From: Prochlorococcus marinus XMU1412
Lineage (GTDB): Bacteria > Cyanobacteriota > Cyanobacteriia > PCC-6307 > Cyanobiaceae
NCBI RefSeq assembly: GCF_017696315.1
Contig: NZ_JAAORJ010000004.1
Location: forward strand, 1-64,000
Direction: 5' to 3'
DNA: 64,000 bases
A program made the translations under genes and the position numbers. Shown piece after piece: positions 3,273 through 20,945 of the stretch; position 1 is the stretch's first letter; the number at the start of each line of letters is the position of its first letter. The notes under the pieces were generated by a model. That model saw only the letters and a list, made by a program, of their open reading frames with translations. It did no database searches and had not been told where the DNA came from.

Positions 3273-3319
3273 AGTGCTTTGGGAGCACTAGGTCGCAGGT
3301 TCGAATCCTGTCGCCCCGA
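3273..3319 (+). repeat. tRNA-Pro 3' fragment, copy 2 (attachment-site duplicate)
   Basis: A 47-base match to the tRNA-Pro anticodon arm through the acceptor end (AGTGCTTTGGGAGCACTAGG, then the T-arm and CGCCCCGA). No D-arm or 5' acceptor strand precedes it, so it is not a working tRNA. Such fragments arise when a tyrosine recombinase inserts an element carrying its own tRNA 3' end. Here it separates module 1 from module 2. Confidence 0.85.
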
Positions 3320-4661: not shown

Positions 4662-5516
4662 ATGAAACTTTTTTCTAAATTCTCTTTGAAAGCAACAGCA
4701 GGTTTTAGCTTCTGTTTGGTAGCATCAATCATTTCATCCAATGAGAAGGCTTTTGCAAACGATTGTGAAACTCTTTTTGGAGATAATCCATCAAGTATAA
4801 ATAATGCCTGTTATATAACTCCTAATACTTACAAAATAAGAGTCTACGAAATGGGTTTATGCACAGCTGATCCTCTTGCTGGAACAACCATAAATAGTAG
4901 TGATGAGGTTGTTACAGACAATACTATTACGGATTCTTCATGTACGCCTACTTTCCAATCATCAACAGGAAGTTTAGTTAATTTAGGTGGGAATGCCACT
5001 CAAACATTGACAGGGACCAATATAAGGCCTCCAGCAGGATCTTATCCTTATGCATATATAAAAATCAAAAATACTTTTGGCTTAAAAGGCACATATCAAA
5101 TTAATGATCAAACATTTTATAGTTCTAATGATGGATCTCCAGTTGCAGAAGGATCTTATGATGAATTTGATGAAGATTTAATGGACTTCAGTAATGGAAA
5201 AACATGTTCAGGAAGTCCAGAGTTAGCTGGAGCAGAAGTTTTCACATCAGCGCCTACTGGAACCATGAAGGCGGTTTTAGCTCAAGTAAGTGGTGGTAAC
5301 TTAGGAACTTATACTGCCGACTCTTCATGTGGAAGTTCAACTCATTTATATGGGTCTTTTGCGCCTACTAATCCAGTTGTTATTACAAATGCGACACAAG
5401 GCTTAGAAGTTACTTTCAGTATTACAAAAAGAGGAATGACTGTCTTCCCCGATGGAAGTGGAGGAATGAGTGGCTTTGGAGGTGGGCCCTTTAGTCCTAG
5501 TTTTTCAACCTATTAA
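4662..5516 (+). CDS. Secreted cysteine-containing protein of unknown function
   Basis: A 284-residue protein with an N-terminal signal peptide (hydrophobic FSFCLVASIISS, cleavage near AFA-ND). The mature part is rich in Ser, Thr, Gly and Asn, has scattered cysteines that could form disulfides (C35, C50, C67, C79 and others), and ends in a Gly-rich GGMSGFGGGPF tail. It follows the beta-barrel gene in the same direction, so it may be a surface partner displayed or exported with it. I recognise no domain; a fibre or adhesin role would be a guess. Confidence 0.6.
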   Translation: MKLFSKFSLKATAGFSFCLVASIISSNEKAFANDCETLFGDNPSSINNACYITPNTYKIRVYEMGLCTADPLAGTTINSSDEVVTDNTITDSSCTPTFQSSTGSLVNLGGNATQTLTGTNIRPPAGSYPYAYIKIKNTFGLKGTYQINDQTFYSSNDGSPVAEGSYDEFDEDLMDFSNGKTCSGSPELAGAEVFTSAPTGTMKAVLAQVSGGNLGTYTADSSCGSSTHLYGSFAPTNPVVITNATQGLEVTFSITKRGMTVFPDGSGGMSGFGGGPFSPSFSTY

Positions 5517-5667
5517 ATTTATTTATAGAGATACTTTCCTTGGTTTGAGTATGATTTATCTTAATTTTTTGCCAACAAATATATCCTAGTTTGTCATTTC
5601 AAATTAAGCATTAGCCAGCAACTATTTAGTCATAGTCTATAGACATAGTGTCCAACTGGGCTTGTTA

Positions 5668-5714
5668 AATGCTTTGGGAGCACTATGTCGCAGGTTCGAA
5701 TCCTGTCGCCCCGA
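5668..5714 (+). repeat. tRNA-Pro 3' fragment, copy 3
   Basis: Matches the tRNA-Pro anticodon arm to acceptor end with one change in the variable region (ACTATGTCGCAGG instead of ACTAGGTCGCAGG). No 5' half is present. It marks the module 2 / module 3 boundary. Confidence 0.85.
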
Positions 5715-5736
5715 CTCTATAAAACCAAGTCATACT

Positions 5737-5760
5737 AGAGAGTTTCCCAGACTCTCTTTT
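5737..5760 (+). terminator. Terminator behind tRNA fragment 3
   Basis: AGAGAGT-7 nt-ACTCTCT followed by TTT and A/T-rich sequence. It is homologous in place and context to the hairpin at 3344 but with compensating stem changes (GCGAGT/ACTCGC becomes AGAGAGT/ACTCTCT). The covariation supports selection on the hairpin. Confidence 0.7.
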
Positions 5761-5787
5761 TATTGCTTGCTTTTAGAATAATGAGAC

Positions 5788-5836
5788 TGAGCGAGATTTG
5801 AGCGAGATTCTGCTATACCTTGCATAACCTTGCCGA
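5788..5836 (+). repeat. Left-end repeats of module 3 (11-bp pair plus 10-bp pair)
   Basis: Two perfect copies of TGAGCGAGATT (5788-5798, 5799-5809) are followed after 7 bases by ACCTTGCATA and ACCTTGCCGA (5817-5836). The order and spacing match module 1; the 11-mer sequence is different. TGAGTGTGATT and TGAGCAAGATT at 7041-7062 are the matching right-end units. Confidence 0.7.
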
Positions 5837-5911
5837 GTGATATCTTTCAAAATGATTATGACATCCACAAAATAATCCGAATAATTCTTATGATTTTTAA
5901 AAACAATAAAA

Positions 5912-7185: not shown

Positions 7186-7232
7186 AGTGCTTGGGGAACA
7201 CTAGATCGCAGGTTCGAATCCGTTGAGCCAGA
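7186..7232 (+). repeat. tRNA-Pro 3' fragment, copy 4 (degenerate)
   Basis: AGTGCTTGGGGAACACTAGA and GGTTCGAATCC are still recognisable, but the acceptor end has decayed (CGTTGAGCCAGA). The upstream GGGACTGTCGCA resembles GGGTACTGTCGCA upstream of copy 2. This looks like the oldest attachment site of the stack. Confidence 0.7.
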
Positions 7233-19269: not shown

Positions 19270-19368
19270 TTAGGAAAAGCTTATTAATGCAGTTACTAAT
19301 GTTATTGAAAGATGGAAAAAAGCGTAAAGAGAAACTGCAAAAAATAAATACTGTTCTATTGGAATCAT
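19270..19368 (-). CDS. Mini membrane protein, 32 aa
   Basis: MIPIEQYLFFAVSLYAFFHL then SITLVTALISFS: almost entirely one hydrophobic helix with a single mid-helix His. Size matches photosystem or cytochrome b6f mini-subunits, but the sequence matches none I know (not PsaM, PetN, PetL or PsbX by eye). Same strand as, and 34 bases downstream of, the gene at 19403. Confidence 0.45.
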   Translation of the reverse strand: MIPIEQYLFFAVSLYAFFHLSITLVTALISFS

Positions 19369-19402: not shown

Positions 19403-19585
19403 TTAATTTTTTGTTAAAAAAATATTTTCTAAAATATAATTTTGCTCTATTGATTCATTTTTTTGAGTCATTTTTTTTGACATATTATTTGTTGAACTAA
19501 AAGCTCCCCATTTTCTCAACCAATATAAGGCATAGAAAAAAGCAATAATGAAAGGTGCACCTACAACTAAGTATCTTAAATCCAT
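19403..19585 (-). CDS. PsbY-like single-helix protein
   Basis: 60 residues from ATG 19585 (TTG at 19588 also possible). The N-terminus MDLRYLVVGAPFIIAFFYAL and YWLRKWGAF parallels that of the gene just upstream ([29 protein letters not shown]) and the general MDWRVxVxxxPxxxAxxW pattern of PsbY. The polar C-terminal 30 residues are unrelated to a known subunit. Likely co-transcribed with 19598-19894, whose stop lies 12 bases upstream. Confidence 0.5.
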   Translation of the reverse strand: MDLRYLVVGAPFIIAFFYALYWLRKWGAFSSTNNMSKKMTQKNESIEQNYILENIFLTKN

Positions 19586-19597
19586 CAAAATACCTAA

Positions 19598-19894
19598 TTA
19601 ATAAGATTTAAATTGCATTGCCAAAATAGCACCTAAAAAGAAAACAGTAGGAATGCCTAAAGCATTTACAGCTGCAGTTCTAACAGTAAAAACAGGATAG
19701 CCTTCTGGAGGTCTGCCAGTAGCAGGAACTAGTGCAGTATCATCCCATACTTGATAGTTTTTGAAAGGTGCAACTCCCTTCTTCGGTAGTCCAAGTGGTG
19801 TCAATCTAAATACATCCCATCTACCCAACCAAAAAACTGTAAATATCCATGAAAATACTATTGGTGTAATAACAAGTAAAACTCTAAAATCCAT
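19598..19894 (-). CDS. PsbY-like helix joined to a PsbF (cytochrome b559 beta)-like domain lacking the heme His
   Basis: 98 residues with two helices. Residues 1-24 ([20 protein letters not shown]) resemble PsbY. Residues 66-95 ([20 protein letters not shown], then [10 protein letters not shown]) closely follow PsbF (YPIFTVRWxAxHTLxVPTxF, FLGAxAAMQF). The PsbF histidine that ligates the cytochrome b559 heme is Asn77 here, and the Trp after TVR is Thr73. The protein therefore probably cannot form a b559 heme site, but it may occupy a PsbF-like position in photosystem II or a related membrane complex. It heads a minus-strand set of mini membrane genes. Confidence 0.65.
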
Positions 19895-20116
19895 TTCTAT
19901 AAAGTAATAATTAATTTGGTATTTATTTTGACCTTTTAAAATTATTAATTGATTAAATCATTAACTTATATTTATACAAAAACACTTAATAACATTATTT
20001 TTAATCATTAATCACAACTAATTATGATTAATTGATTTTCGTTAAGTATATTTTTTAAATAAAAATATTTGAATATTTAGTTTGGTGTAGATTTAATTTA
20101 ATAAAAATTAAAAAAT

Positions 20117-20570: not shown

Positions 20571-20639
20571 CTAATGCTTTTCGCCTTTCAATAAAATTTT
20601 TCTCCTTATATAAAAGAAAACTAATGTAGTTATTATCAT
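20571..20639 (-). CDS. Micro-ORF, 22 aa, tentative
   Basis: MIITTLVFFYIRRKILLKGE followed by KH: a short helix with a basic tail, convergent with the 27-residue gene. Chance cannot be excluded at this size. Confidence 0.2.
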   Translation of the reverse strand: MIITTLVFFYIRRKILLKGEKH

Positions 20640-20945
20640 CACCGGGGGATGAAATGAGATTGAATTAAGATATTCATAATAACTAAAGTTTTCCAATTAC
20701 TTAAAAACAAACTCTAAAAACTATATCCTTTTTTCAAATCTCAAATTGATATATATAAACCATTCTCATGTATAAAATGTTTATATAATTTCTATATTTA
20801 TTTGAAGTTATTAGTAATTAATGATTTTCAAATAGGATGATCATATAATTCTTCACTAAAAATTAATCAAAGTAAGTAAAAACCAATTAGTAAATAACTC
20901 TCTATCGAGGTTTATAATTTTCAAATCTATTGTTTACAACAAAGA
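20640..20945. other. Gene-free AT-rich stretch
   Basis: About 300 bases with no supported gene, hairpin or repeat. Probably carries the promoter for the gene at 20946. Confidence 0.4.

Follow-up and report, generated by a model that had tools for sequence, protein, structure and literature searches.

According to the relevant sections of the source articles, cytochrome b559 is a component of photosystem II (PSII) in all oxygenic phototrophs (PMC9214863), and PsbY adjoins it in the complex (PMC4823308). A second psbF gene, located outside the psbEFLJ operon, is reported for Synechococcus sp. PCC 7335, and its product, PsbF2, was found in PSII; PsbF2 retains the heme-ligating histidine and is 75% identical to PsbF1, and the relevant passages of the two reports do not refer to a PsbY helix (PMC8689208, PMC9843442). 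Two NCBIfam models, NF002720 and NF002717, describe a long form of the beta subunit, a name that implies a cytochrome. A single chain with both a PsbF and a PsbY helix is present in PDB entries 7ymi/7ymm, where the PsbF part comes first and the histidine is kept. We take this chain to come from Acaryochloris marina; no paper on Acaryochloris PsbF/PsbY was found in the open-licence PubMed Central literature.

Here we describe a gene, C0, located in a stretch of 64,000 nucleotides from Prochlorococcus marinus XMU1412 (contig 4, NZ_JAAORJ010000004.1), hereafter the window. The strand and coordinates of C0 are exact: it is a minus-strand open reading frame of 98 residues (Table 1). An earlier sequence-only reading had proposed that its product is a PsbF-like protein without the heme histidine, fused to a PsbY-like helix. 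In profile searches, residues 63–88 matched PF00283 with 33.1 bits, above the Pfam cut-off of 30, and residues 1–98 of 98 matched NF002720 ('cytochrome b559 subunit beta, long form') with 212.2 bits, against a cut-off of 127. With the NCBI PsbF equivalog TIGR01333, C0 scored 55.0 bits and fell short of the cut-off of 61.15. A phmmer search of the PDB returned 33 distinct sequences at E<=10, all of them PsbF chains, and the best match (2.7e-11) was a 99-residue chain with PsbF-like and PsbY-like stretches. The motif YPVFTVR and a further 10-residue stretch of the PsbF surface were invariant in 17 aligned rows, one of which carries a single mistyped residue. C0 resembles PsbF (PF00283, TIGR01333) in sequence along the membrane helix and the stretch leading into it from the N-terminus, but differs from it in the missing ligand histidine, in an extra PsbY-like helix, and in lying away from psbE.

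Table 1. Coordinates of C0, its parts and its cassette neighbours in the window
Feature	Position	Strand	Evidence
C0, 98-residue PsbY-like/PsbF-like fusion	19598..19894	-	NF002720, 7.3e-64; PF00283, 3.7e-8
C0 residues 1-25, first membrane helix, PsbY-like	19820..19894	-	Profile-profile 95.5% vs PsbY; helix 3-25 in low-confidence model
C0 residues 66-95, second membrane helix, PsbF-like	19610..19699	-	Sequence matches; helix 68-95 in low-confidence model
C0 codon 77, Asn (AAT), PsbF heme-ligand position	19664..19666	-	ATT on + strand; family alignment
61-residue protein (60 from ATG), similar to the N-terminal portion of C0 and lacking a PsbF part	19403..19588	-	NF002717, 4e-6, residues 2-43; 80/80 high-light-type loci
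C6, 32-residue single-helix protein	19270..19368	-	At its place in 80/80 high-light-type loci
C1, 140-residue protein (137 from ATG), probably two helices	18375..18797	-	78/78 loci
C2, 121-residue two-helix protein, divergent from C0	20117..20482	+	77/77 loci
C3, 41-residue single-helix protein with HPP motif	20571..20696	-	74/77 loci

The likeness of the first helix to PsbY became apparent only with the family alignment. As a single sequence, C0 matched PF06298 (PsbY) over residues 1–13 with an E value of 0.093 and 13 bits, below the cut-off of 24, whereas the separate, normal PsbY of the same genome reached 38.1 bits. When the N-termini of the C0 family were compared with 25 PsbY sequences in a profile-profile alignment, the probability was 95.5 (E 1.5e-8, score 36.1, 22 columns), in contrast to probabilities of 0.49–1.05 and scores of 10.4–13.7 for five other families of small membrane proteins used as controls. 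The PsbY set was drawn from 31 loci, 27 of which yielded a sequence with the pattern, and two evident false picks were removed. The family profile retrieved 34 distinct PDB sequences at E<=1, of which 33 matched in the PsbF part and one was a PsbY chain (E 0.49). On these comparisons the fusion reading stands, with PsbY homology established over a short stretch. Hydropathy and a low-confidence AlphaFold model (mean pLDDT 60.2, pTM 0.34; usable for helix limits only) agreed on two helices and an intervening loop; against the one PDB chain passed by Foldseek, the model gave no match at Z 2 or more. Residues 24–74 contain 7 K/R and 4 D/E, charges which place the loop on one side of the membrane and agree with the cytoplasmic N-terminus of PsbF.

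In order to compare the ligand site across genomes, sequences of the family were collected by the motif around it with any residue allowed at the site itself, a procedure that misses members with another motif. The ligand position was Asn in all 95 distinct proteins (from 158 loci, many of which are repeats of the same genomes) and His in the five normal PsbF sequences compared. The Trp located four residues before the ligand was replaced by Thr in 94 of the 95. Both Asn codons were used, AAT in 144 of 170 loci and AAC in 26. Among 87 distinct genes of the high-light type, pN/pS was 0.105 in helix 1, 0.172 in the loop and 0.038 in helix 2; for helix 2 across all groups (117 distinct stretches) it was 0.068. 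Because the Asn is invariant while both codons are in use, and because purifying selection is strong, it is not a one-strain mutation. These results confirmed what had been proposed for both halves of the protein, and showed that the Asn extends to other genomes. Of the two outcomes that the sequence-only reading had named as refuting it, a PsbF resemblance that fails in profile tests and an Asn limited to one strain of a His-bearing family, neither was observed. Taken together, the results show C0 to be a real and conserved PsbF paralogue, devoid of the heme ligand and joined to a PsbY-like helix. Since the ligand His is missing in the 95 distinct members examined, C0 should not be classified as cytochrome b559 beta, even though NF002720 and NF002717 describe its family. 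The one member seen with the PsbF Trp (TVRWLAIN) also has a short loop; it occurs in loci L157 and L205, from genome G111, and perhaps lies near the ancestral state.

The same data bear on whether C0 might be a functionless psbF duplicate in decay. Its presence is patchy, repeats of the island type occur around it, and in genome G042 (locus L166) the C-terminus is frameshifted after VFF, through either damage to this copy or an error in sequencing. However, pN/pS values of 0.038–0.172 already contradict decay, the Asn stays constant while its codon varies, and several divergent genus groups carry the gene. We therefore regard decay as very improbable.

The source genome (1.73 Mb) also encodes PsbE with its His, a normal His-bearing PsbF and a normal PsbY. 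The expectation that a regular psbF exists elsewhere was correct: it lies together with psbE on contig 1. Across 400 genomes from the same family, we counted 100 with the C0 gene in the result rows, comprising 43 of the 68 listed genomes of the same genus, 46 genomes with a match above the NF002717 cut-off, 7 that belong to genus group g64, and another 4, of which one is partial. Class-wide, in 388 genomes, at least 20 full-length matches were found, all within the same family; the other matches listed were PsbF-only, except for two that span the model only when 2 and 7 stop codons are read through. Among the best 80 of 144 relatives, the nearest named ones were from Prochlorococcus, with a few titled uncultured Synechococcaceae. 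C0 is absent from many high-light genomes, and also from complete genomes. We take the carriers to include MIT9312, AS9601, MIT9215, MIT9515, SS120 and MIT9211, and MED4 and MIT9301 to be without it. In MIT9312, C0 presumably lies at 1.09 Mb and the normal psbF at 0.29 Mb.

As to whether such a protein has been described, the sequence-only reading knew of none, which held in part. NCBIfam models for the family exist, and one paper, in the portion bearing on this gene, lists a 'PsbF-like protein' of MIT9312 whose transcription was reduced along with psbB, J, K, T and O under HDPE leachate, a response uninformative as to function; we infer from the tag number that this fits C0 better than the normal psbF. 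The lost ligand and the fusion are mentioned neither in the NCBIfam entry nor in the passages on this family in the open-licence PubMed Central literature. PSBF_PROMA in the relevant section of the SS120 proteome paper (PMC5451487) is most likely the normal PsbF.

C0 belongs to a cassette of six genes in a fixed arrangement that encode small proteins, most of them membrane proteins, as observed in 80 named high-light-type loci (Table 1; for each neighbour, only high-light-type loci with enough flank were counted). This cassette extends beyond the coordinates that the sequence-only reading had covered. In-frame stops among the neighbours were limited to one copy of the PsbY-like 61-residue protein and one of C1. 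Of 61 same-genus genomes, 26 have C0, and full-length C2 is present in exactly those 26 (the G042 copy of C0 being the frameshifted one); C1 occurs in 27, of which 25 are C0 carriers; G032 and G054 have C1 without C0, and G013 has C0 without C1. The genes of the cassette are thus nearly always all there or all missing. Genome G050 carries two complete cassettes (L159, L160) at different places, about 360 kb apart. Matches to C2 fragments in G009 and G005 were considered as decaying cassettes, a candidate that was rejected because both matches extend to contig ends.

Such an arrangement might indicate that C0, C1, C2, C3, C6 and the PsbY-like protein form a separate membrane complex, in which the PsbF-like helix would have been co-opted as a packing module away from PSII. 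The fixed cassette in high-light-type loci and the near-identical presence across the 61 same-genus genomes argue for this, as does C1, which is found with C0 in 9 of the 12 groups of loci; C6 is found in 7. (High-light genomes, g86 and g64 were counted as one group each, together with nine single loci; L157 was left unassigned. The high-light C6 is linked to the low-light C6 family through place and look alone.) In contrast, C2 and C3 are near C0 in only 4 of the 12 groups and are often missing nearby in low-light and g64 loci, although in L151 they lie about 4 kb from it, and the conserved residues of the PsbF face suggest the old partner, PsbE. We consider a separate complex unlikely.

No PSII relatives of the cassette partners were found in Pfam or PDB, and C1 had no relative of any kind there. 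The AlphaFold model of C1 (mean pLDDT 53.8, pTM 0.23) was usable for helix limits only. In C1 and its relatives the stretches GxRFxAIWVLP and RFxxIWVLPxAITG resemble each other, and both coincide with predicted helices. A degenerate PsbF/PsbE pair, considered because of this repeated R-F-x-A-I-W-V-L-P motif, was not supported: the profile-profile probability against the C0 helix-2 alignment was 0.07. C3 has a His before Pro-Pro at the helix start in 60 of 74 high-light matches, the position being unreadable in the other 14. In low-light loci L148, L149, L151, L161 and L163, a one-helix protein of 51–54 residues (C10) lies near C0; it is slightly PsbX-like in look, and two sequences gave no Pfam match. 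L163 further shows, near 5000–5900, a run of small proteins of the high-light-inducible type at 2–3 kb from C0, one of which is Chloroa_b-bind. Some loci have metal-related neighbours, which differ by lineage: g86 and g34 have flavodoxin, high-light genomes and one locus of g69 an Nramp-type transporter, and g41 an ABC ATPase and CobW (one example of each family was named by Pfam). They are only a hint of metal limitation. By eye, no Fur- or Zur-type site was recognised upstream of C0, and an inverted sequence of the type TAATCAT..ATGATTA was seen in the C0/C2 intergenic region (window 19895–20116).

Repeats of a 22-base tRNA T-arm sequence (<=3 mismatches) were found around the cassette. Among 74 loci with both flanks, of 81 sequences (C0 was not located in L107), the repeat preceded the C0 start by 700–1300 bases in 22 and followed it by 1300–1900 bases in 26; 13 loci had it on both sides and 39 on neither. 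The offsets were nearly constant, at about -1064 and +1602, with none in between, against an expectation of 0.075 per 600 bases from the rest of the loci; the bracketed piece runs from C3 to C1. Repeats of tRNA ends thus flank the cassette in about half of the high-light-type loci, as in genomic islands. In Prochlorococcus, a known genomic island is marked by tRNA-Pro repeats of 48 bases. In the window no T-arm repeat brackets the cassette and ARAGORN found no tRNA, but four plus-strand matches, at 29–39, 3298–3308, 5693–5703 and 7211–7221, were seen against 0.14 expected, and the first 8 kb have the appearance of an island. In high-light genomes the cassette looks exchangeable. The sequence-only reading had suggested a search for the fusion in cyanophages, which brought no confirmed relative: the phage collection gave no match at E<=0.01, and for five pattern matches among viral contigs no relative was confirmed. 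A phage origin of C0 was rejected on these grounds.

The sequence-only reading had offered three candidate roles for the protein: to replace PsbY/PsbF, to act as a placeholder in assembly, or to stabilise damaged centres under light stress. The PsbF face persists, whereas the ligand has been lost and so, in 94 of 95 proteins, has the Trp close to it; the simplest reading is therefore that C0 docks on PsbE and binds no heme. A solved PSII chain joins PsbF and PsbY, so a single chain is able to serve both positions. From sequence comparison we favour, tentatively and at somewhat under even confidence, the interpretation that C0 is a heme-free, one-piece stand-in for PsbY and PsbF, through which the b559 site would be heme-free in some PSII centres. 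In this mechanism, helix 2 would dock on PsbE in the manner of PsbF, helix 1 would occupy the adjoining PsbY position, and a loop of about 40 residues, probably cytoplasmic, would connect them. Asn in place of the ligand His, together with Thr in place of Trp, would leave PsbE without a bis-histidine heme site, and centres taking up C0 would have an iron-free, redox-silent b559 site. Some centres would be built with C0 in certain circumstances, perhaps during repair or when iron or heme runs short, and the normal psbEF genes would stay.

Several observations are consistent with this stand-in role. Helix 2 has the lowest pN/pS, and its PsbF surface is nearly unchanged although the ligand position is always Asn; helix 1 is PsbY-like, and PsbY is a neighbour of b559; PsbE with its His is encoded in the source genome; and the loop charges fit. 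Furthermore, PsbE His mutants of T. elongatus form apo-b559 PSII at wild-type level, whereas b559 His mutants of Synechocystis and Chlamydomonas mostly accumulate little PSII, as stated in the pertinent sections of one article (PMC9214863). Also against a stand-in, normal psbF and psbY are present and nothing forces substitution, the PsbY homology is limited to 22 columns, the cassette partners lack PSII relatives, many high-light genomes are without C0, and one copy is frameshifted.

The coexistence of normal psbF and psbY would suit a placeholder in assembly or repair, in which C0 would hold a PsbE/D2 intermediate at the b559 position, would later be swapped for PsbF and PsbY, and would never enter a working centre. 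The b559 subunits work with D2 early in PSII assembly, according to the same sections (PMC9214863), and loss of heme would leave the intermediate redox-silent. However, a core assembly factor is expected in all strains, yet complete genomes lack C0, and we consider this role unlikely. Returning to the stand-in, its combination with the island data, namely a facultative heme-free PSII variant of Prochlorococcus and relatives in which the chain of an exchangeable island cassette would replace PsbY and PsbF and make b559 redox-silent in a fraction of the PSII centres, appears to us rather doubtful.

In summary, our results suggest that the NCBIfam name of the C0 family misleads, and that surveys of psbF may mix two different genes. 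The role of the b559 heme is still debated, and C0 would represent a natural experiment in an abundant ocean phototroph, with the PsbF surface kept and no heme ligand. If the cassette moves between island sites, a core position of the photosystem would be open to cassette exchange.
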